A stretch of DNA of 64,000 nucleotides from a virus, in IMG/VR virus record IMGVR_UViG_3300031857_013798, positions 222,230 through 286,229 of that record. One strand, given 5' to 3'. Shown in pieces: positions 10,512 through 35,218 of the stretch (position 1 is its first letter; every line of letters starts with the position of its first letter). Both the position numbers and the translations under genes were made by a program. Under the pieces are notes generated by a model. The model saw only the letters and a list, made by a program, of their open reading frames with translations. It ran no database searches and had not been told where the DNA came from.

Positions 10512-11008
10512 CTTGGATCCTTACGATGTTCAAACAGTCCCGCAAGATACTCTTCTGGCCAGTTGTGATAGAATCCCTTCTCAGCCATAAGTTTGGCTTT
10601 GTTGTTTAAGTCGCTGAGACTTTGCACTAGAGCTAGAGCATACTTGCCTTGATTCATACACACACCGTTCACCATCTCAACGTCTGCGGGATGATCCTCT
10701 AGTGCAAGTAGATCGTTGCGTAACAAATGTTCCTTGTTGGCATTTTTCAAACTGTCACTGAACAATTCATATGGCCATTCCACAGGATCGTAAGCATAGA
10801 TAATAACTTCCTTATCGCCCATGCCCCATCGTGCTCGATTTTTAAGATCAAAGTAAGGATCTACGCCAACATGTACATCGTAGCTTTTTTTCATGCGTGC
10901 TGAGCGTGCGTATGGACAAGGAGCCCAGCCTCCAAGAGCAGGATGTGGAACTTCTACAAAGTTCACAATCCAGTTTTCAATATCTTGTTTAACTGTATCT
11001 AAGTCCAT
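10508..11008 (-). CDS. Conserved hypothetical protein
   Basis: 166 residues, unknown role. The N-terminus has WIVNFVEVPHPALGGWAPC then PYARSAR, a pattern I associate with uncharacterised phage proteins; the PCPYA element looks like a conserved active or binding site. Mixed alpha/beta, soluble, no membrane segment. Its ATG overlaps by one base (TAATG) the stop of the -1 frame extension of gp26, so its translation is probably coupled to ribosomes that complete the frameshifted product. Confidence 0.6.
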   Translation of the reverse strand: MDLDTVKQDIENWIVNFVEVPHPALGGWAPCPYARSARMKKSYDVHVGVDPYFDLKNRARWGMGDKEVIIYAYDPVEWPYELFSDSLKNANKEHLLRNDLLALEDHPADVEMVNGVCMNQGKYALALVQSLSDLNNKAKLMAEKGFYHNWPEEYLAGLFEHRKDPR

Positions 11009-11238
11009 TAGAAATACGGCAGTTTAGTTTTGTTGGTGGTTTCCATGTTTTCTTCGGCTATCTTGCTGATCATTTTTCTTTCAGTGAAACTTAGTGCCAA
11101 CACCTGATCGTAGGTGAGTCCGCCGCGCATTAACCAAGCCAATCTTAAACTGTTTGATCTAATTGCGTTGGCCTCCTGATCAAGGCTGTCAATGTACTCG
11201 CCAATTTCCTCTACTGGGAGGATCAGGAGGCGGCTTCG
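11008..11238 (-). CDS. -1 frame extension of gp26 (tail assembly chaperone fusion)
   Basis: An open frame of 76 codons that continues gp26 in the -1 frame. It encodes EEIGEYIDSLDQEAN, LRLAWLMRGGLTYDQVLALS and ends KTKLPYF. From the last in-frame stop at 11272 down to the Met of WLMRGG (about 11130) there is no ATG or GTG, and only one late TTG, so independent initiation would remove half of it. Slippage on TTTTTTC (11244-11238) would join it to gp26 residue 277, giving a 353-residue fusion. This resembles the G/GT chaperone pair of other long-tailed phages. The first codon shown is the first after the slip. Confidence 0.75.
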   Translation of the reverse strand, partial: RSRLLILPVEEIGEYIDSLDQEANAIRSNSLRLAWLMRGGLTYDQVLALSFTERKMISKIAEENMETTNKTKLPYF

Positions 11239-11244
11239 AAAAAA
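11171..11244 (-). promoter_or_regulatory. Programmed -1 ribosomal frameshift signal
   Basis: On the minus strand the gp26 frame reads AAT TTT TTC, giving the slippery heptamer T TTT TTC (11244-11238). After a 6-base spacer, GCCTCCTGATC (11231-11221) pairs perfectly over 11 bp with GATCAGGAGGC (11181-11171), with a 39-base loop. The gp26 stop (11225-11223) lies inside the 5' arm. Heptamer, spacer and stem match canonical -1 frameshift sites. Confidence 0.8.
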
Positions 11245-12068
11245 TTTGTAAGATCCAGATTTAGTGCTTGATCATGTTCGTGATTGCATTCACTGCAAGT
11301 GAGATGCACAGGTTTCAGTTCTGTACGATTGCGCAAGTCAACTGCGTGATCTCTAACAGCAACAAAAATTTGACGATCGCAGTTTTGCAAAAATTCATCA
11401 ATGTGCTCAGTCTCTGACACAACAGCATTTGGTGTACGAATTGCTGAAATTGAGTACTTGAGAGCTCGCATGGTCAGCTGAGTTAGTATTTTCATCACTT
11501 CTGCTAGTTTTTGTAACTTTTCGTCTTCGGTGAGCTCAGTATCCATGCTGATGTTGCGCATCATGCGTTGATTTTCAAACTGCTCAAGATTGATTTCATT
11601 TTGCTTTTCGTAACTCATGGGATGAAAATAAATTTCCAAATCACCATAAGTTACTGTGGCAGAAAAGTCCGGCATGGTCAACTGATCCAGTGCATTGCGC
11701 AAGTCTAACGCAAAACTCTCAATGTGTTTGCAAGCAGGACATGTAGTTTCAATTTCAAGCTCATGCCCGTAGCTGGCAATACGAATAGCAACTAGGATAG
11801 AATTCAAATCTGCCACAGGAGCATGCCAGGCATTCTTAATTGACGGCACACAACTGTGTATTACATTGACCACAGCTTGCCCGCTAAACAGCGCATCTGG
11901 CGTGCGATAGGTGATTTCGTCAATGGCTGTCATGGGATAAACAGGCAGCTCACCGTTTTGAGGCACGTCTAAGCTGCCTTCGGGCCAGTATTTGCCCTGG
12001 CTGGGCAACCGCAAGTAAATTGCTGGTTGTCTAAAAAATTGTCTAAGTGGATTGTGATTTTGGTTCAT
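11223..12068 (-). CDS. 26: gp26-like baseplate hub/tail assembly chaperone
   Basis: 281 residues, T4 baseplate-hub gp26 family. Two CxxC pairs, TCPACKH near residue 103 and TCSECNHEH near 260, suggest a zinc site, and FHPMSYEKQNEI is a family-like segment. It is divergent from and adjacent to the tape-measure gene, where long-tailed phages normally encode the tail assembly chaperone. The 3' end carries a slippery heptamer and stem-loop for a -1 frameshift into a 76-codon extension. On the minus strand TATAAGTA (12098-12091), one base off the late octamer, lies 22 bases before the ATG and may be its promoter. Confidence 0.8.
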   Translation of the reverse strand: MNQNHNPLRQFFRQPAIYLRLPSQGKYWPEGSLDVPQNGELPVYPMTAIDEITYRTPDALFSGQAVVNVIHSCVPSIKNAWHAPVADLNSILVAIRIASYGHELEIETTCPACKHIESFALDLRNALDQLTMPDFSATVTYGDLEIYFHPMSYEKQNEINLEQFENQRMMRNISMDTELTEDEKLQKLAEVMKILTQLTMRALKYSISAIRTPNAVVSETEHIDEFLQNCDRQIFVAVRDHAVDLRNRTELKPVHLTCSECNHEHDQALNLDLTNFFEAAS

Positions 12069-12109: not shown

Positions 12110-15100
12110 ATGGCGGACGTAAATCAAGCATCACAAGAAATGGCTGAAGTCATAGCACGAGTTTCTGACGACCTTAGAAATTTTGGGCGAGTTACTGAAG
12201 ATACCCAGGCAGCACTGGCAGCAGGAAGTTTCCGTCGAGCAAAAGAACTTGACAAGGCCAGTGCGTTAACAGCAGGTGCGCTGGGAAACCTAGCAGGTGC
12301 AGGTCTTGCAGCCGGCAAAGCCATGTACGATGGCCAAAAAGGCGCCGCAGCATTTAACAGTTCACTTGACAGCATGAGCAAAGCAGTTACCGCAGCCGGT
12401 GCTGCGTTGACTTTCTTGGTGCCTGGCGGGTTCTTGATCAAAGCTCTAATTGGTCTGGGCACAGCCGCAGTTGGCGCTAGTATTAAGATGACTCAGGCGG
12501 CCAACGACATGGCCGACAACTTGTTTGCTGCCAATACCAAAATGGCCAAAGCTGGCCTGGCTGGTTCAGATGGCATGATGGGCATCTTCCGCGACGCCAA
12601 GAAGCTTGGCTTGAGCATGAAAGAGCTGGGTGTATACACCAATGCAGTAGCAGCCAACAGCGCAGAATTGGCCTTGTTCAAAGGCACAGCATTTGAAGGA
12701 CGTCAGGCATTTGCCAACATTGGTGCGGCCATGAAGCCTTTCCGGGTCAGCTTAGAGGCAGCTGGTATCAGTCTGGAAGATCAGATTGAAGGAACAGCTG
12801 GCTATTTGAGACTGCAAACTTTGATTGGTCAGAGTCAAAACAAAACCAACCAAGAACTGGCTACTGGTGCTAGAAAATATCTTGTTGAAATGGACGGCCT
12901 CAGCAAGCTCACAGGCATGCAACGTCAAGAAATTGAAAAGCAAATGGAATCTGCTCTCAGCGAACAGAGATTCCGTGCCAAGCTGGATGCCATGCGAGCG
13001 ACCAAGGATCCTCAACAAATGGCTGCTGCTGATCAACTGATGAGAGCTAATCTTATGTTGAGCAAGCAGGCTCCAGAGTTAGGACAAGCATTTAGAGACA
13101 TTCAATCTGGAGCTCTTACCAGCGATGCTGCTGTCAAGGGCGTGATCAGCACTCAAGGTCAGTTGATGCAATCAAGTGAAGCATTGCAGTCAGGTCAAAT
13201 TGATGCCAATCAAGCTGTCAAACAAATTGGTACCTCAATTGGCCAATTCAATAAGGACTTGAACTTTACGGCTCAGCTGGGCCTGTTGAATGATTTTGCA
13301 ATTGATTATGCACAGGGACAAAAACTGGCTATTTTTGCCCAGCAAGACATCAGTAAGATAGCTGCTGAAATTGTCGTTGAACAAAACAAACAGATGAGTG
13401 GCCTGGGTGATGCCAACACTCGGGCCATGGCTGAACTGCGTGAAATGCAGCGCAATGCCAATGAAAAATTTGAGACCACAGTGTCGCAATCAATCAGCAC
13501 TGCCATTGCCATGAGCAAATCTTTGGTCGGAGTTACTGAACCTATTGCCACTGCATTTAAAGAACTGCAACCAGTGATGGACAAGTTTATGAAACAAATG
13601 GTCAAACTCACAGACTGGATTGCCGAAAAACTAGGATTCATTGTTGGTAAAACTGTTGATGTGGTAGAAGCCACACAAAAAGACGGCATGGGCGGATTTT
13701 ACAGATCTGGCGGCAGTGAAATGGTTGGAACTGGTGTTGGTGCATTAGCTGGTGCGGCGGGTGGTAAAATAGCTGGTACTTATGCAGGTGGAATAGTTGG
13801 CTCTCTTTTTGGACCTGCGGGCACTGTGGCTGGAGCCGCTATAGGTGGAAAGATTGGCCCATATATTGCCACTGCCCTTGGTAGTGTTCTTGGCAAATAT
13901 TTAGGCATGGGCGCTGATGCATTAGGTACCGCATTAACTCCTCCTGGGCGTGCCGCTGGCGGACCTGTCAGCAGACGAAATCCCTACATTGTGGGCGAAC
14001 GTGGTCCAGAGCTCATGGTGCCTGAGCAATCAGGAAAAATTATAAACAATGACAAACTAAGCAAGATGTTTGAGTCAATGGCTTCTTCTGTATCTTCAGG
14101 ACAAGTCAGTGTTGATATGATATCTCAAGTGATGGGCAGTTCTGTAACTGTGGTTACTAACACCAATGACGAACTGACTAACAATTTGAGAACCACACAA
14201 AACGTTGGTAGCACATATCAAGCAATACTGAGATCTGTTGACGAGCTAAACGATAAAAACAAAAAAACAACAGAATCAGTAATTGTAGCTCAACGTGATA
14301 CTTTGACAGACATACAACGCATTGAACGTTACACTGATCAAGACACCAAACGCACAAAAGAGTTTGTGGATTTTCACAAAAAATATCTTGACAGTGTCAC
14401 CCAGATATTGGGTGAAAACTTAGAGCTACTGCAAGAACAATCTGAACAAAGTGGTTCTGCGGGTTCAGGCGGTGCGCCAGGCATGGGTGGAGGCACTGGC
14501 CTAAAAATTCCAGCAGCACCACCAGCTGGGGGCATGGGCGGAGGTAGCGGTGTTAGCCCAGGTGGCGGCCAAGGCATGAAAACTGCCAATGAAAACAATT
14601 TGTTGTCCATGGGCCTCAAATTTGATCCCAATCGTGATGTACAAGCTGAAGGCGCGGCAATCAGCCCTAAGCTGATTGAGCTGGCTAAAAATGTTCAAAG
14701 TCTAGTGCCTGGATTTTCAGCATTTACAGGATTTAACGATCAATTCCACAATGAAAAAAGTCCAAATAGCTTGCATACCAAAGGCCAGGCCATGGACTTT
14801 GTGCTGAACAAAAAGCCCACACGAGAAGAAGGTGCAAGCATTGTTAGTTGGCTCAAACAGTCAGGAGCCAGTCTTGCTATAGATGAGTACCACAACGCCA
14901 CTAAAAATGCCACAGGTGGCCACTTCCATGCACAGATCCCGGCATTTGGTGATGGCGGCATGGTGGACAAAGCCACACTGGCGTTGATTGGTGAAAAAGG
15001 TCCAGAAGCTGTGATTCCCATGGATGGCAAAGAAATTCCACTGAATATATCCAAGCCAATTCCGATCAAGCTGGATTTCAAAGATGTAATGGCCGAAGGC

Positions 15101-15586
15101 GGCATTGGCCCATCAGTCATGGGCTACAATCAATATACGGGTTACAATACAGGAGCAGTAAGTACTGATCTTGCCGCAGTTAAAGAAATTGCAACAGCCA
15201 TGGGGGCTTTTGATAAAGCATCACAAACCATCACTGATCCAGCAACCTGGAAAGAAATTATAAATTCAGGCATTGCAACAAATTTTGATACTAATATTAT
15301 GAAAATAGGCACTCAAATGTTTGACGGCGCAGGCCCCCTATTAGGTCAACGATTGAATGATATTGTGGCCGAAAACGGTGTGAATCAGAAAGAAGCATTT
15401 GATTTAATGTTTGCAGAGTTCAAAGAAGCTATGACAGTATTGGGAACAGAAATGGCAAATAAAATAGCCAAAGAAAACGCTTCCCCAGAAACAGATGCGC
15501 TGATTGCCGGCATTGATGCACTAATTGCCAAGCAGAGTGAAGCCAACGACATCAGCAAGAAGATACTCCAGGTGAGTGCAAACTAA
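12110..15586 (+). CDS. Tail tape measure protein with M15-like peptidase domain
   Basis: 1158 residues. Ala/Gly-rich helical N-terminal half with hydrophobic glycine-zipper segments near 545-600, typical of tape-measure proteins that span the tail lumen and enter the host membrane. The motif GGPVSRRNPYIVGERGPE (about 618-635) and a second copy-like GDGGMVDKATLALIGEKGPE (about 945-964) are frequent in these proteins. Between them is a D-Ala-D-Ala peptidase-like (M15/VanY) domain: SLHTKGQAMDF (about 886-896, His and Asp ligands) and GGHFHAQ (about 935-941, His ligand), suggesting peptidoglycan cleavage during DNA entry. It takes the place of T4 gp29. Confidence 0.85.
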   Translation: MADVNQASQEMAEVIARVSDDLRNFGRVTEDTQAALAAGSFRRAKELDKASALTAGALGNLAGAGLAAGKAMYDGQKGAAAFNSSLDSMSKAVTAAGAALTFLVPGGFLIKALIGLGTAAVGASIKMTQAANDMADNLFAANTKMAKAGLAGSDGMMGIFRDAKKLGLSMKELGVYTNAVAANSAELALFKGTAFEGRQAFANIGAAMKPFRVSLEAAGISLEDQIEGTAGYLRLQTLIGQSQNKTNQELATGARKYLVEMDGLSKLTGMQRQEIEKQMESALSEQRFRAKLDAMRATKDPQQMAAADQLMRANLMLSKQAPELGQAFRDIQSGALTSDAAVKGVISTQGQLMQSSEALQSGQIDANQAVKQIGTSIGQFNKDLNFTAQLGLLNDFAIDYAQGQKLAIFAQQDISKIAAEIVVEQNKQMSGLGDANTRAMAELREMQRNANEKFETTVSQSISTAIAMSKSLVGVTEPIATAFKELQPVMDKFMKQMVKLTDWIAEKLGFIVGKTVDVVEATQKDGMGGFYRSGGSEMVGTGVGALAGAAGGKIAGTYAGGIVGSLFGPAGTVAGAAIGGKIGPYIATALGSVLGKYLGMGADALGTALTPPGRAAGGPVSRRNPYIVGERGPELMVPEQSGKIINNDKLSKMFESMASSVSSGQVSVDMISQVMGSSVTVVTNTNDELTNNLRTTQNVGSTYQAILRSVDELNDKNKKTTESVIVAQRDTLTDIQRIERYTDQDTKRTKEFVDFHKKYLDSVTQILGENLELLQEQSEQSGSAGSGGAPGMGGGTGLKIPAAPPAGGMGGGSGVSPGGGQGMKTANENNLLSMGLKFDPNRDVQAEGAAISPKLIELAKNVQSLVPGFSAFTGFNDQFHNEKSPNSLHTKGQAMDFVLNKKPTREEGASIVSWLKQSGASLAIDEYHNATKNATGGHFHAQIPAFGDGGMVDKATLALIGEKGPEAVIPMDGKEIPLNISKPIPIKLDFKDVMAEGGIGPSVMGYNQYTGYNTGAVSTDLAAVKEIATAMGAFDKASQTITDPATWKEIINSGIATNFDTNIMKIGTQMFDGAGPLLGQRLNDIVAENGVNQKEAFDLMFAEFKEAMTVLGTEMANKIAKENASPETDALIAGIDALIAKQSEANDISKKILQVSAN

Positions 15587-26869: not shown

Positions 26870-29800
26870 ATGGCAAACAAGATTCCGTTAGTAGTAAACA
26901 CAGGTAGCGCACAGATTCAAGAGCTGGCCAGTGGCGATAATTTGCTGTTGACCAACAATGATATTTTGGGTGTAGGCAGTATCACTGCTGCCAATAACAT
27001 TGTTGCTAGTGGCAATGTTTACGGTACGTATTTTATTGGTAACGGTTCACAGTTAACTGGGCTTGCCACCGGCAATTCAACTGCTATTGAAAGTGGAACA
27101 TCTAACGTTGCTGTTGTAAGTTCAGGCGGCAATGTCACTGTTGGTATTGCTGGCACCGGTAATGTGGTTGTGGTTGGAACCAACACAGTCACAGTCAAAG
27201 CCAATATTCTTCCTGCTGCCAATCTAACCTACAGCCTTGGCAGCCCAACAGCACAGTTCAACGATCTTTATCTTTCCAACAGCACTATTTTCCTAGGCAA
27301 TGCCACAATCAGTGCCAACTCAACTGCTGTTATAATGACCAACGAAAGTGGTCAACAAACTGTAATCAGCGGTGGCGGTACGCTCACAAGTTATGGCAAT
27401 GCCAATGTGGCATCTTATCTTGCCAGTGGCGCAGACACTAGCAACATTATCACTACTGGCAATGTTCAGGGCACTTATGTTTTAGGTAATGGTTCACAAC
27501 TGACTGGCTTGCCTGCAACATACGGCAATGCCAATGTTGTGGCTAATTTGGCTGCACTAGGCACCAACCCAATATCAACTACTGGTAACATCACTGCTGG
27601 ATATGTGTTTGGTAATGGTAGCCAACTGACTGGCTTGCCTGCAACATACGGCAATTCAAACGTTGCTGCATACCTGCCAACCTACACTGGTAACCTAGGT
27701 GGCGGCAACGTTGGAGTGAGTGGAGCAGTAACTGCTGCCACAGTTAGTACTTCAGGCAACATCACCGGCAGTTATATATTAGGTAATGGTAGTCAACTGA
27801 CTGGCTTGCCAGCAACATATTCAAACGCTAATGTTCAGGCATATTTGCCAACCTACTCGGGCAACATTGGCGCACTACTTGCCAACGGCAACATACAAGT
27901 TGTCAACGGTATTTTCATTGGTAACGGTGCTGGACTTACTGGCGTTACTGCCAGCTCAAATGTTGGATCAGCAAGCAAACTTTCAAACGGCACAACAGAA
28001 TTTAATATTCCTGTGGCCAACGGCAACGTGGTTGGTAACATTGGTGGCGTGACCAACGTTTATACTTTTGCCTCAACAGGAATGAGTGTTGCTGGTAACG
28101 TAACAGCAAACTACTTTATTGGTAATGGTAGTCAACTGACCGGTTTACCTGCCAGCTATGCAGATTCAAATGTTACAACATTATTGGCCGCGTTAGGGTC
28201 AAATGTTATTAGCGGAACAGGCAACATAACAACCACTGCCAACATCAGTGGCGGCAATGTTGCCGGTACATTGAGCACAGCCGCACAACCTAATATCACA
28301 AGTGTTGGTACACTCGGATCATTGAGTGTAACTGCCAATATTGATGGTGGCAACTTACGCACTGTTGGACTGATATCAGCAACTGGCAATGTGTCAGGTG
28401 GTAATTTAAATGCCACAGGATTGAGCTTGAGTGGTAACGTTGTTAGTGCGTTAGTTTCAGCAGCCAATATTACAACTACTGCTAACATTTCAGGCAACTA
28501 CATTTTAGGTAATGGCTCACAACTCACAGGGGTCAATTCCGTAACTGTTGATGTAACAGACACAAACGGCCTAACAACCATTTACTACCCTACGTTTGTA
28601 GAGAATCGCACCACAGCTCAGATAGCACGGGCGGATGTGGATCTCACCTACCGGACTGATGATAACCTATTGACCGTGGGCAATGTTTCAGTCACTGGCA
28701 ACATAGATGGCGGTAATCTACGCACAGCAGGGCAGGTTACAGCTACTGGTAACGTCACTGGTGGTAACTTGAATGCCACAGGCTTGAGCCTAAGTGGCAA
28801 CGTTGTCAGTGCATTAGTGTCTGCGGCAAATATAACAACCACAGCCAACATCAGTGGCGGATACATTTTAGGTAATGGCAGTGCGTTGACTGGCTTGCCA
28901 GCAGGATATGCCAACTCAGATGTTTCAACATACTTGGCCAGTGGTACTGAAACTGCTAATATTATCACAACTGCCAATGTCAGTGGCGGAAATTTAGTTT
29001 CAACTGGTTTGGTCAGCGTTGCTGGCAACGTTATTGCTAACAACATTAATACAACTCAAAGCGTAACTGGCACAGTAATCAGTGCTTCGGGCAACATCAC
29101 AGGTGGGAATGTAAACACAGGCGGCCAAGTGGTTGCTACTGCTAATGTGTCAGGTGGCAATTTAACCACAGCAGGACAAGTAAGCGCAACAGGCAATATT
29201 ACTTCAGCAGCCAATGTGTCAGGTGGAAACTTGACCACAGGTGGTCTGATTAGTGCAACTGGTAACATCACCGGTGGTAATATCTTAGGTGGTGCTAATG
29301 TTAATGCAACCACTCACACAGGTACTACAGTATCAGTAACTGCCAACGTAACTGGTGGAAACTTGACCACAGCAGGATTGATCACTGCTACAGGCAACAT
29401 TGACGGCGCAAACATACGCACTCAAGGTACAGTAAGTGCCGCAGGTAATATTATCACTACAGGTTACTTTGTGGGTAACTTTGCCGGCAACATTACTGGT
29501 AACTTAACTGTTCCTGGTTCAAACACACAAGTGCTTTACAACGCCAATGGCAATGCTGGCGCAGTAGCAGGATTTACATATAACACAGACTCCAACACAA
29601 TGACTGTGTTGGGAGTTGTATCTGCACAAGGAAATGTGATAGCTGGCAACGTGACCACAGTTGGTCAAGTCAGTGCCACAGGCAACGTGACTGGCAATTA
29701 CTTTGTTGGTAATGGTGCATTGTTGACAGGCGTTGCAACAGGTACACCCACACAAATTGTCAGCGGAACATCAAATGTTTCTATTGTAAGCTCAGGTGGC

Positions 29801-32800
29801 AACGTAGCAGTTGGGGTTGGCGGAACTGCCAATGTGGCGGTATATGCTGCAACTGGCGAATATGTTACTGGCTTGATCAGTGCTACAGGCAATGTGTCAG
29901 GTGGTAATTTGACCACAGCAGGACAAGTTGTTGCTACAGCCAACGTGTCAGGTGGTAATTTGACCACAGCTGGCGAAGTAAGTGCTACAGGCAATGTAAC
30001 TGGTGGCAACATCATGGGTGGCGCTAACGTTAACGCCACAACTCACACAGGTACCACAGTCAGTGTAACTGCCAACGTGTCAGGTGGCAATCTAACTACA
30101 GCAGGTCAAATAAGTGCTACTGGTAACATTACTGGTGGTAACTTGAATATTGCTGGCAATATTGTAGACACTGGTGCTTTAACAATTATTACAGGTAGCA
30201 ACGGCAACATTGCGTTGGCACCAAATGGTACAGGTATAGTCACAGCGTCTGGCGCATTTAGTGCTGTTGGCAACATCACTGGTGGTAATATTTTAGGTGG
30301 TGCTAATGTCAACGCAACTACCCACACAGGTACTACAGTATCAGTAACTGCCAACGTGACTGGTGGCAATCTAACCACAGCAGGACAAGTAAGTGCTACT
30401 GGCAACATCACTGGTGGCAATATCTTAGGTGGTGCTAACGTTAATGCAACCACTCACACAGGTACTACAGTCTCGGTAACTGGCAACATCACTGGTGGCA
30501 ATATCTTAGGTGGCGCCAATGTCAACGCAACCACTCACACAGGTACCACAGTATCAGTAACTGCCAACGTAACTGGTGGTAATTTGGTAACAGCTGGTAC
30601 GGCCAACGTAGCAAGCATAGTCACAAGCGGCACTGCAATTGTAACTGGTAACGTAACTGGTGGCAATTTGTTGACTGCTGGCGTAGTTTCTGCAACTGGT
30701 AACGTCACAGGTGGCAACATTGTTACCACAGGCGCTGGCGGCAACATTACTGGTGCCAACGTTATCACAGCAACAACATTGAGTGCAACTGGTGTTGTTG
30801 TTGCAACAGGCAATGTCAGCGGTGGCAATTTGACCACAGTTGGCAATGTCAGCGCATCAGGTAACGTAGCTGGTAATTACATTTTGGGTAACGGTGCATT
30901 GCTGTCAGGCATTGCAGCCGGTACTCCTACAAAGATTGCTAACGGTACTACAGAAGCCAATATTGGTGTCACTGGTGGTAACGCCAACATTTCTGTTGGT
31001 GGTATTGCCAATGTGGCAGTGTTTGCCAATACTGGTGCGTTTGTAACTGGACTGATCAGTGCTACTGGTAATGTAACCGGTGGCAATTTGGTAACTATTG
31101 GAACTGGTAACATAGCTGCATTGGTAGTTTCTACTACAGCCAATATTACAGGTAACGTAACTGGTGGTAATTTATTAACTGCTGGATTGATTTCTGCAAC
31201 TGGCAACATCACTGGCGGCAATTTGAATGCTACCGGCTTGAGTCTAAGTGGCAATGTTGTAAGTGCATTGACCAGCGCGGCAAATATCACAACCACTGCC
31301 AACATCAGCGGTGGATACGTGTTAGGCAATGGTGCTCTGTTAACTGGCGTTGTGGCCACCAGCATTGGTACACTGCCAAGTGTGAGTGTAACTGGCAATA
31401 CTGTAACTGGCAACTTGAATGCATTGGAACAAGTTAGTGCCGTGGGCAACATCACCGGTGGCAACATTTTGTTTGGCACATTCAAATTACTTGGTAATGG
31501 TGATGCACAAGTTGGTAATTTAACAGTTACTAATGGCCCAGGTACTGGCAACATTGTTGCTGGTAGCATCATAAGTGCCACAGGTAATATATTAAGCGGT
31601 AGTAATATCATTGCAACTGCCAATGTCACTGGCGGCAATATTACCACTGCTGGATTGATTTCTGCAACTGGCAACATCACCGGCGGTAACATATTGGGCG
31701 GCGGAGTTGGTACTCAAATCAGCACAGGCGGCAATGTTAATGGCGCGGCGTTCAATGGTAATGTATATTTTGGCACTGGTATAGTAACAGGCACTGGTAA
31801 CATCACCGGCGGCAATATTGCAGTTTCGGGTGTGTTGTTGTCTACTAATACAGTTTCAGCAACTGGTAATATCACTGGCGGCAATATTGGAACAGCTGGA
31901 AATATCACTAGCACAAACACTGTTATTGCTGAAAATATCATAGTTGGACCAGGCATCACCGGTGGTAACATCAGTGCACTGGCCAATATCACAGGTGGCA
32001 ATTTGCTCACAGGTGGTATAGTAACTGCTACAGGCAATGTAACTGGTGGCAATTTGGTCACAGGTGGATTGATCAGTGCCGCAGCCAACGTCATTGGCGG
32101 TAATTTAATCACAGTTGGAACAGTCAACGGCGCCACACTTAACATCACTGGTAATGCAGTTGTGGGTGGTGACTTGACTGTTGATGGCAATGTTATCTAC
32201 ATTAACATCACAGACTTAAATGTTCAAGATCCAATTATTGGATTAGGCCGTGGTGCCAACAACACACCTCTTACAGTCAACGATAACAAAGATCGTGGCG
32301 AACAAATGTGGTATTATACCACTGCTGAGAATTCAGCGTTTATTGGTTATCAAAACTCCACAGGCAATTTGATTGCAGCCAGCAACGTAAGCATTGCTAA
32401 CGAAATTGTCACAGTCAACAGCTACGGTACATTTGTGGTTGGTGCATTGGCAGCAGCATCTGTAACTTCTACTGCTACCATAGCAGCCGGCAACGTGACC
32501 ACAGCAGGATTGATCAGTGCCGCAGGCAATGTCACAGGTGGTAATGTTAGAACTGTTGGACAAGTTAGTGCCACAGGCAACATCACTGGTGGCAATGTTG
32601 GTACTGGTATCTTAACAGCAACCACAGTTAGCGCAACAGCCAATATCACTGGTGGTAATATTCTTACTGGCGGAGCAATTAGTGCAACTGGTTTGATTGT
32701 AGCAACTGGCAATATCACCGGCGGAAATATTGACACCACAGGAACAATCAGTGCATCTGGACTGAATGTAACTGCTAACACAGCCACTGGAAATTTAACC

Positions 32801-35218
32801 ACAGCGGGCATAGTAAGTGCAACTGGCAACATCACTGGTGGCAACATCACTGGTGGTATTTTGTCAGCCACAGGCAACGTAGTTGGTGGAAATGTATCAA
32901 CTGCAGGTTTGATCCTGGCAACTGGCAACATCACAGGCGGTAATTTGAATGCCGCAGGATTGAGTTTGAGTGGTAATGTTCAGAGTGCATTGAACTCTAC
33001 TTCTAACGTCACAACCACAGGCAACATCAGTGCCGGCTACTATGCTGGTAATGGTAGTTTGTTAACTGGCGTGGTTGCCACTGCAATTGGTACTTTACCT
33101 AGCTTGAGTGTAACTGGTAACGTTGATAGTGGAAATCTACGCACAGCAGGGTTAGTTTCAGCCACAGGCAACATTGACGGTGGCAACTTGCTGACAGGTG
33201 GCACAATCACAGCCACAGGCAACATTTTTGGTGGTAATCTGCAAGGTGCATTGATTTCTGCCACAACAGCAATATCAGCTACTGGCAACGTGATTGGTGG
33301 CAACATTGTCACAGGTGGATTGATCACAGCCACAGGCAACATTGTTTCTACTGCCAACGTTGCAGGTGGTAATGTGGTTGCTACCACTTTGGTACAAGGT
33401 GCTGGACTTAGTGCTACAGGCAACATTGATGGCGGCAACTTAACAGTTAGCGGTGGAGTAACAGCCACAGCCAATGTGTCAGGTGGCAATTTGGTCACTG
33501 GTGGTTTGGCTGCAATCACTGGCAACGTAACTGGTGGCAATTTACGCACAGTTGGTTTGGTAACAGCAACTGGTAATGTCACTGGCGGCAATATCACAAC
33601 AGCTGGTGAAGTAAGTGCAACAGGTAATGTAACTGGTGGCAATGTCAACGGCAGTATTGTTAGTGCAACAACCAATGTCACAGCAGGCGGCACAGTAAGT
33701 GCGCAAGGTAATGTAACTGGCGGTAATATTGTTACTGGTGGATTGATCACTGCTACTGGTACTATCACTTCTGCTGCTAACGTAGCAGGTGGAAACTTAA
33801 CAACTGGTGGTGCTGTTAGCGCAGCTGGTAATATCACAGCCGCAGCCAACATTGCTGGTGGCAATATTTCAACTGCTGGGTTGATTGTAGCAACAGGTAA
33901 CATCACAGCTATAGCTAACATTGCTGGCGGCAATATTTCAACAGGCAATGCAATTGCAGGTGGCAGCATATTATCAAGTACCACTCTCAGTGCAGTGGGC
34001 AATGTGATTGGTGGCAATATCAATACTGGCGGACAAGTTAGTGCTACTGGTGCCATTACAGGCGCAAATATTTCTGGTACAAATTATACAGGTACCACAC
34101 TCAGTGTTACAGGCAATATTGACGGCGGCAACATCAGAACAGTTGGTCAACTTTCAGCAACAGGTAACATCACTGGTGCAAATGTCATAGCAACCACATT
34201 TATTGGTAACTTGCAAGGTAATATCTCCCTAGCAGGCAGTAATACTCAAGTGTTGTTTAATGACGGCGGCATTGTTGGTGGTACTGCTGGCATGGTGTTT
34301 GACAAAACTACCAATGCACTCAGCATCACTGGCACATTTGCCACAAACGGTGTGGCAGCAGACATCAACGTTGGCGGCAGAATTTCAGTAGCTGGTAACA
34401 TTTTGACTGGTACTGGCAACATCAGTGGCGGCAACGTTTTGAGTGGTGCTCAAATTAGCGGTATTGGTAACGTCACAGGCGGTAACATTGTCACAGGTGG
34501 ATTGATAACTGCAACAGGTACAATCACTTCTGCTGCCAACGTTGTGGGCGGAAACATCACCACAGGTGGTCAAGTAAGTGCAACAGGTAACATCACTGGC
34601 GGTAACATTATTACCGCAGGCGCAAGTGGTAACATCACTGGTGCCAATGTAATCTCGGCTACCACATTGAGTGCAACTGCCAACGTAAATGGCGGCAATG
34701 TTATCAGTGTAGCATTGGTACAAGGTGCAACGGTCAGCGCAACTGGTAACGTGATTGGTGGCAATGTAACCACAGCAGGTTTAGTGTCAGCAACTGGCAA
34801 TCTTGCTACTGGTGCCAACGTAGTAGCATCTGGATATGCTACCGTAACTGGCAATATCACAGGCGGCAATATTATCACTGCAGGAACAGCCACAGTAACT
34901 GGTAACATAACCAGTGGAAACATAGCAGCTACAAATCACACAGGAACCACAGTCAGTATCACTGGCAACGTGATTGGTGGCAACTTGACCACAGGTGGAT
35001 TAATAACTGCAACAGGCAATATAACTGGTGGCAATGTCAACGCCACAGGATTGAGCTTGAGTGGCAACGTGGTTTCTGCAATCACAATGACTGCAAATAT
35101 CACCACTACAGGCAATATTTCAGGTGGAAATATCTCAGCTACAGGTAACATAAATATTGCTGGACAGTTGGCGGCAACCATAGCAGACGCAACAGCATTG
35201 GCAATAGCATTAGGATAA
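26870..35218 (+). CDS. Giant repetitive tail fibre protein (2782 aa)
   Basis: 2782 residues, the largest gene in the window. After an N-terminal module shared with the 88-residue protein at 21608 it consists mostly of repeats of the TGN-TGGN type, plus cassettes with YILGNGSQLTGLPATY. Inserts break the pattern, for example NITDLNVQDPIIGLGRGANN near 1780 and two TQVLYNANGN/TQVLFNDGG blocks, motifs seen in S74-type fibre proteins. The composition (Gly, Asn, Thr, Ala, Val, Ser; almost no Cys or Trp) suggests a very long trimeric beta-structured fibre. I see no autoproteolytic chaperone at its end, so folding help may come from neighbours. Confidence 0.85.
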   Translation: MANKIPLVVNTGSAQIQELASGDNLLLTNNDILGVGSITAANNIVASGNVYGTYFIGNGSQLTGLATGNSTAIESGTSNVAVVSSGGNVTVGIAGTGNVVVVGTNTVTVKANILPAANLTYSLGSPTAQFNDLYLSNSTIFLGNATISANSTAVIMTNESGQQTVISGGGTLTSYGNANVASYLASGADTSNIITTGNVQGTYVLGNGSQLTGLPATYGNANVVANLAALGTNPISTTGNITAGYVFGNGSQLTGLPATYGNSNVAAYLPTYTGNLGGGNVGVSGAVTAATVSTSGNITGSYILGNGSQLTGLPATYSNANVQAYLPTYSGNIGALLANGNIQVVNGIFIGNGAGLTGVTASSNVGSASKLSNGTTEFNIPVANGNVVGNIGGVTNVYTFASTGMSVAGNVTANYFIGNGSQLTGLPASYADSNVTTLLAALGSNVISGTGNITTTANISGGNVAGTLSTAAQPNITSVGTLGSLSVTANIDGGNLRTVGLISATGNVSGGNLNATGLSLSGNVVSALVSAANITTTANISGNYILGNGSQLTGVNSVTVDVTDTNGLTTIYYPTFVENRTTAQIARADVDLTYRTDDNLLTVGNVSVTGNIDGGNLRTAGQVTATGNVTGGNLNATGLSLSGNVVSALVSAANITTTANISGGYILGNGSALTGLPAGYANSDVSTYLASGTETANIITTANVSGGNLVSTGLVSVAGNVIANNINTTQSVTGTVISASGNITGGNVNTGGQVVATANVSGGNLTTAGQVSATGNITSAANVSGGNLTTGGLISATGNITGGNILGGANVNATTHTGTTVSVTANVTGGNLTTAGLITATGNIDGANIRTQGTVSAAGNIITTGYFVGNFAGNITGNLTVPGSNTQVLYNANGNAGAVAGFTYNTDSNTMTVLGVVSAQGNVIAGNVTTVGQVSATGNVTGNYFVGNGALLTGVATGTPTQIVSGTSNVSIVSSGGNVAVGVGGTANVAVYAATGEYVTGLISATGNVSGGNLTTAGQVVATANVSGGNLTTAGEVSATGNVTGGNIMGGANVNATTHTGTTVSVTANVSGGNLTTAGQISATGNITGGNLNIAGNIVDTGALTIITGSNGNIALAPNGTGIVTASGAFSAVGNITGGNILGGANVNATTHTGTTVSVTANVTGGNLTTAGQVSATGNITGGNILGGANVNATTHTGTTVSVTGNITGGNILGGANVNATTHTGTTVSVTANVTGGNLVTAGTANVASIVTSGTAIVTGNVTGGNLLTAGVVSATGNVTGGNIVTTGAGGNITGANVITATTLSATGVVVATGNVSGGNLTTVGNVSASGNVAGNYILGNGALLSGIAAGTPTKIANGTTEANIGVTGGNANISVGGIANVAVFANTGAFVTGLISATGNVTGGNLVTIGTGNIAALVVSTTANITGNVTGGNLLTAGLISATGNITGGNLNATGLSLSGNVVSALTSAANITTTANISGGYVLGNGALLTGVVATSIGTLPSVSVTGNTVTGNLNALEQVSAVGNITGGNILFGTFKLLGNGDAQVGNLTVTNGPGTGNIVAGSIISATGNILSGSNIIATANVTGGNITTAGLISATGNITGGNILGGGVGTQISTGGNVNGAAFNGNVYFGTGIVTGTGNITGGNIAVSGVLLSTNTVSATGNITGGNIGTAGNITSTNTVIAENIIVGPGITGGNISALANITGGNLLTGGIVTATGNVTGGNLVTGGLISAAANVIGGNLITVGTVNGATLNITGNAVVGGDLTVDGNVIYINITDLNVQDPIIGLGRGANNTPLTVNDNKDRGEQMWYYTTAENSAFIGYQNSTGNLIAASNVSIANEIVTVNSYGTFVVGALAAASVTSTATIAAGNVTTAGLISAAGNVTGGNVRTVGQVSATGNITGGNVGTGILTATTVSATANITGGNILTGGAISATGLIVATGNITGGNIDTTGTISASGLNVTANTATGNLTTAGIVSATGNITGGNITGGILSATGNVVGGNVSTAGLILATGNITGGNLNAAGLSLSGNVQSALNSTSNVTTTGNISAGYYAGNGSLLTGVVATAIGTLPSLSVTGNVDSGNLRTAGLVSATGNIDGGNLLTGGTITATGNIFGGNLQGALISATTAISATGNVIGGNIVTGGLITATGNIVSTANVAGGNVVATTLVQGAGLSATGNIDGGNLTVSGGVTATANVSGGNLVTGGLAAITGNVTGGNLRTVGLVTATGNVTGGNITTAGEVSATGNVTGGNVNGSIVSATTNVTAGGTVSAQGNVTGGNIVTGGLITATGTITSAANVAGGNLTTGGAVSAAGNITAAANIAGGNISTAGLIVATGNITAIANIAGGNISTGNAIAGGSILSSTTLSAVGNVIGGNINTGGQVSATGAITGANISGTNYTGTTLSVTGNIDGGNIRTVGQLSATGNITGANVIATTFIGNLQGNISLAGSNTQVLFNDGGIVGGTAGMVFDKTTNALSITGTFATNGVAADINVGGRISVAGNILTGTGNISGGNVLSGAQISGIGNVTGGNIVTGGLITATGTITSAANVVGGNITTGGQVSATGNITGGNIITAGASGNITGANVISATTLSATANVNGGNVISVALVQGATVSATGNVIGGNVTTAGLVSATGNLATGANVVASGYATVTGNITGGNIITAGTATVTGNITSGNIAATNHTGTTVSITGNVIGGNLTTGGLITATGNITGGNVNATGLSLSGNVVSAITMTANITTTGNISGGNISATGNINIAGQLAATIADATALAIALG
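30281..30560 (+). repeat. Near-identical tandem cassette within the giant fibre gene
   Basis: Three copies of a cassette encoding GGNILGGANVNATTHTGTT begin near 30288, 30421 and 30500; further copies lie near 29282 and 30010. They differ at few bases, so they look recently duplicated. Confidence 0.8.

Follow-up and report, generated by a model that had tools for sequence, protein, structure and literature searches.

Conserved −1 frameshift site in the gp26 gene of T4-related giant phages, very likely yielding two tail assembly chaperones, one short and one long

Close to its tape measure gene, phage lambda makes a short protein (G) and, in low abundance, a long form produced by −1 frameshifting (GT; PMC5009743). 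For T4, the list of hub assembly chaperones includes gp26 and gp51. The latter is essential and does not occur in the particle, and the data on gp26 conflict as to whether it is a part of the hub or a chaperone (PMC3004832). Two earlier statements form the context of our finding: a 2016 review (PMC5009743) names T4 as the exception to G/T frameshifting, and a short cyanophage gp51 without the first ~200 residues has been described, no explanation being given in the available part of that paper (Sullivan et al. 2010, PMC3037559). That T4-like phages have tail chaperones of the G/GT kind was published in 2022 (Vladimirov, Gautam & Davidson, Virology 566:9–15, as cited in PMC10885494).

The DNA analysed here (the window) is a 64-kb stretch of the 286-kb record of a giant, T4-related freshwater phage. 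On its minus strand, positions 12068–11223 encode a 281-aa homologue of gp26, which starts with an ATG at 12068 and whose short form is terminated by a 0-frame TGA (11223..11225). The protein matches PF12322 (T4_baseplate) with E 9.6e-15, above the curated cut-off, and the baseplate hub family phrog_150 with E 8.8e-18, and it is the only PF12322 copy in the whole 286-kb record. We propose that it is the TAC-N, or lambda G, equivalent. Its AlphaFold2 model (pLDDT 87.9) matched T4-like baseplate hub assembly proteins among viral models (E 4e-24); a fold search of the PDB returned no solved structure alike (best E 0.47).

The same model also matched uncharacterised proteins of 450–690 aa from the large phages phiEaH2, RSF1, Special G and Motura, which, judging from the predicted fold, are possibly undescribed chaperones. 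Two CxxC motifs (residues 110–113 and 258–263) occur in the protein; they are found in the T4 and jumbo homologues as well and are degenerate in cyanophages. The pair suggests a putative zinc site.

On the plus strand, 12110..15586 encodes a probable tape measure protein of 1158 aa, whose assignment rests on PHROG matches to tape measure families (E 2.4e-8 to 1.2e-4). The RaK2 neighbour, which is annotated as tape-measure-like, is weakly similar to it (E 3e-4). The gp26 gene adjoins this probable tape measure gene, but is divergent from it rather than upstream in the same operon. The slippery sequence of lambda G/GT differs from the T TTT TTC described below, and we found the gp26 homologue linked to lambda G neither by sequence nor by fold. 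Further along the plus strand (26870–35218) is a 2782-aa ORF built from repeated GN(I/V)xGGN-type units; it may encode a fibre or another structural protein.

At 11244–11238 the minus strand reads T TTT TTC, in phase with the gp26 codons TTT TTC. The heptamer has the X XXY YYZ form of −1 programmed ribosomal frameshift sites and stands in the 0 frame, as the preliminary description had claimed. It is overlapped by A AAT TTT, and a slip there would yield an identical fusion. Since a DNA-level search of a phage collection with the locus gave no matches, relatives had to be found by protein search, which yielded RaK2, CBB, GAP32, BF, Munch, slurp01, XaC1, XacN1, Atu_ph07 and Phosso as well as three sets of IMG/VR loci.

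The heptamer is present at the same Phe-Phe pair throughout these relatives, as T TTT TTC in 185 of 186 loci and as T TTT TTT in the remaining one. The former spelling accounts for 105 of the 106 jumbo-type loci (the other being XacN1) and for all 80 cyanophage-type loci, counts that include near-identical copies and become 84 and 80 upon their removal. In every one of the 186 loci the −1 frame beyond the heptamer is open, and the codon preceding Phe-Phe always ends in T, though the residue varies (S, N, A, T, H, R, L, D). At the remaining Phe-Phe pairs of these genes, T TTT TTC occurs in 3/51 and 0/79 cases, and at the 21 pairs in 30 genes of the window it does not occur at all. Because the heptamer stands at 186/186 here against these frequencies elsewhere, and because RNA stability peaks at this position (see below), the heptamer and the −1 frame are beyond chance. 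The site also occurs in KVP40, S-PM2, P-SSM2, HTVC008M, Cr30, phiW-14, Mendera and nACB2. Conservation of the slippery site and the −1 frame, which the preliminary description had proposed to check in relatives, thus extends to all the jumbo and cyanophage-type phages examined.

In Ackermannviridae, gp26 ends E/Q-I-F-I-stop in conserved DNA (ATTTTCATTTAA) with a homologous −1 frame extension, and no X XXY YYZ heptamer was found at these ends. T7 gene 10 has an N NUU UUC slip site; judging from their sequence, slippage of the Ackermannviridae genes at such a site is possible. The gp26 end of Vibrio phage K355 resembles this pattern (A CTT TTC).

In the window, the −1 frame is open from past a TGA at 11274 up to a stop ending at 11008, so the product of a −1 slip is a 353-aa fusion, with the predicted junction peptide TELKPVHLTCSECNHEHDQALNLDLTNFFR and then SR/LLILPVEEIGEYIDSLDQEANAIR. 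The extension (11008..11238, minus strand; 76 codons and a stop) would be the TAC-C, or GT-specific, domain. It contains no ATG, GTG or TTG before codon 33, the first TTG being at codon 33 (11142) and the first ATG at codon 37 (11130); a 76-codon frame devoid of early starts and a 353-residue fusion had been claimed at the outset, and both were borne out. The extension measures 76 aa in 94 freshwater/jumbo loci, 70–79 aa in other jumbo isolates and 58–66 aa in cyanophage-type loci. As expected of the long form in the TAC family, it is a conserved addition past the domain: RLL, WyMRGG and ETTKKSGLPFF stand out, and residues 1–5 (R.RLL) are among the most conserved.

The dN/dS of the extension had a median of 0.23 over the 24 pairs with measurable synonymous change, and was 0–0.20 in the ten least diverged pairs, versus 1.25 and 1.81 for the same DNA in the other frames; this comparison, too, had been suggested beforehand. 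The −1 frame is open in 71/71 non-redundant copies, the other frames having 5–6 stops per copy. The extension is under purifying selection. That the frame results from an indel in sequencing or assembly, or that the gene is broken, is refuted by this selection and by the recurrence of the same structure in ~160 non-redundant loci and many isolate genomes; the presence of a T run is all that speaks for such an artefact, which we regard as vanishingly improbable.

Downstream of the heptamer, a 6-nt spacer (GAAGCC, 11237–11232, minus strand, of the length first reported) leads to the 5′ arm of a stem, GCCTCCTGATC (11231–11221, minus strand), which includes the gp26 stop codon and pairs perfectly over 11 bp with its exact reverse complement, GATCAGGAGGC (11181–11171, minus strand). 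The RNA of this region folds with −26.2 kcal/mol (z −2.82), and 3 of 200 shuffles were equally good. A stem past 6 nt falls within the 5–9 nt at which stimulatory structures lie; in RaK2-type isolates it is weak or absent. The perfect 11-bp stem of the preliminary description stands for the window, with exact arms, but the full 11 bp were seen only in its closest relatives. About half of the clade retains a core of 7–8 bp (CGCCTCCT/AGGAGGC), CGCCTCCT in the 5′ arm being dual-coded and nearly invariant, and other lineages have different stems at similar spacing.

Position, more than pairing partner, is what recurs. A helix of at least 6 bp starts 4–9 nt past the heptamer in 33/73 and 32/79 sequences, as compared with 3–16 and 3–4 at control offsets, and a start at +6 is the commonest in the freshwater clade (34/73). 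With 70-nt windows, the jumbo fold z was −1.86 at +3 past the heptamer versus −0.73 to +0.54 elsewhere, most of the other offsets lying between about −0.4 and +0.5; in the cyanophage group it was −2.48 just past the heptamer, overlapping windows slightly upstream being low too. The 8-bp core pairs in 76% of cells; permuting the partners between sequences leaves this at 73%, and sliding them lowers it to 31–54%, which makes the pairing evidence more positional than covariational. The 11-bp stem was accordingly rejected as a family-wide feature: it is lineage-specific, and structure at that position is general.

The stem region offered two further observations. In cyanophage-type loci, where the hairpin begins ~5 nt past the slippery site, the ATG annotated as the start of gp51 lies inside the hairpin 5′ arm. 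In the window (11177–11161, minus strand), the 3′ arm contains AGGAGG, a motif kept in about half of the clade, with an in-frame ATT 8 nt later. T4 gene 26 has an internal AUU start, and the T4 record lists a gene 26′; the likeness is probably a coincidence.

The six consecutive T (in a few relatives there are seven) could in principle also cause RNA polymerase to slip, giving mixed mRNAs instead of ribosomal frameshifting. Runs as short as six T are, however, poor polymerase slippage sites. Moreover, the run always has the same codon phase and a C in the seventh position, and the RNA structure peaks just 3′ of it, at the spacing expected for −1 frameshifting, all of which renders this explanation highly improbable.

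Another reading takes the −1 frame for a small gene of its own, expressed from its own start or by re-initiation past the gp26 stop. This is how it is annotated in the records of P-SSM2, S-PM2, KVP40, BF, slurp01 and Munch, as a separate small ORF (a short 'gp51', as in the cyanophage and KVP40 records, or a hypothetical protein), and many cyanophage-type copies do have an ATG at extension codon 4. That ATG, however, sits inside the stem arm; start positions in the jumbo phages are scattered, those of the window coming no earlier than codon 33; and the invariant phase and spelling of the heptamer would be left without a reason. Conservation beginning with the very first post-slip residues (R.RLL) disfavours an internal start, and together with the lack of a conserved start codon it makes an independently initiated small product, the outcome that the preliminary description had named as contrary to frameshifting, unlikely. 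As the equivalent tail in T4 is, in addition, fused in frame to the domain, we attach very little weight to a separate gene and retain ribosomal frameshifting.

The T4 genes are a natural instance of the two products. T4 has two PF12322 genes, 26 and 51, compared with one each in KVP40, S-PM2, P-SSM2, HTVC008M, Cr30, phiW-14, ViI, Atu_ph07, RaK2 and the relatives of the window. T4 gp26 keeps the Phe-Phe, but this is spelled TTC TTT and preceded by GAG, so that it is not slippery; T4 gp51 consists of the PF12322 domain plus a tail. As proposed for the window, there is a short domain version and a domain-plus-tail version of one family, but in T4 they come from two divergent genes without a slippery site. 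Since T4 possesses gene 26 (short) and gene 51 (domain and tail), the fused form exists naturally, which strengthens the analogy with lambda G/GT first drawn in the preliminary description. In Klebsiella phage KM3 (locus 1201–2495), the duplicated pair is arranged in yet another way: gp51, gp26 and gp25 follow one another on a single strand.

The tail of T4 gp51 is homologous to the cyanophage −1 extensions (E 1.1e-6; reversed control 0.34), and the freshwater extension to that of the RaK2 type (E 8e-14). Directly compared with the T4 gp51 tail, the freshwater/jumbo extension gave a non-significant E of 0.08, and its link to T4 rests on position and on the cyanophage and RaK2 intermediates. 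Direct alignment (hhalign) of a jumbo fusion profile with the single T4 gp26 and gp51 sequences was weak, and Pfam and the cyanophage intermediates were used in its place.

Cyanophage and KVP40 loci resemble the window in having one gp26, T TTT TTC before its stop, a −1 extension and a hairpin directly 3′, and differ in that their extension (58–66 aa) has another sequence and the next tail genes are on the same strand. With the T4-like chaperones of the gp26/gp51 family, the window shares the PF12322 domain and, as predicted, short plus long products; unlike them, it belongs to the RaK2/Atu_ph07/freshwater jumbo lineage, has a single gene with no separate gp51, and carries that gene divergent from the tape measure gene.

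The frameshift could be real and both proteins nevertheless be structural parts of the baseplate hub, not transient chaperones. Databases label the family as baseplate hub, the CBB copy is annotated as a structural protein, and T4 gp26 has itself been placed in the hub by some of the conflicting data (PMC3004832). The T4 long form, gp51, is however essential and absent from the particle (PMC3004832), the pairing of a short and a long form next to a tape measure gene is how chaperones occur, and later work on T4-like phages assigned genes to the chaperone role (as cited in PMC10885494); we consider a purely structural role distinctly unlikely. Family and context instead suggest a chaperone role for the jumbo gp26 proteins.

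We are thus largely confident that −1 programmed frameshifting lets the gene specify a short/long pair of tail assembly chaperones of the lambda G/GT type. The site, its phase, the conserved extension and the purifying selection on it, the local RNA structure and the in-frame fusion in T4 gp51 support this. We infer from them that slippage occurs, as well as its rate and the chaperone action, along the following lines. The majority of ribosomes would read gp26 to its stop, giving 281 aa. A minority, stalled by the downstream RNA stem, would move back by one base at T TTT TTC, the Phe-Phe tRNAs re-pairing on TTT TTT, and would read 76 further codons to yield 353 aa, in which the gp26 domain is followed by a C-terminal domain. 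If lambda G/GT and T4 gp26/gp51 are taken as the model, the tape measure protein would be coated by many copies of the short form and few of the long one, tail-tube subunits would be recruited through the C-terminal domain, and the two forms would depart before the virion is complete.

As to origin, we can offer a tentative scenario, for which our confidence falls somewhat short of balanced: a frameshifted gp26 may be ancestral to the whole T4 superfamily, jumbo lineages included, the T4 group having replaced it through a duplication that gave genes 26 and 51, and Ackermannviridae having kept the extension and moved to a non-standard slip site (N NUU UUC).

Vladimirov, Gautam and Davidson reportedly found frameshifting kept in several T4-like groups, with T4 using genes 26 and 51. 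The doubt initially voiced about whether this is a standard annotation of gp26 was justified in that most records leave the frameshift unannotated or list a separate 'gp51' or hypothetical protein; the idea itself had been published in 2022 (as cited in PMC10885494). With a −1 slip in T4-like phages described then, this kind of frameshift is already known, and what may be new here is the membership of the RaK2/Atu_ph07/freshwater jumbo lineages together with the measured invariance of the site. Because cyanophages, KVP40 and jumbo phages share this site almost without variation, the two frames should be annotated as one frameshifted gene, and such strict conservation provides clear targets for measuring short:long ratios in relatives of T4.
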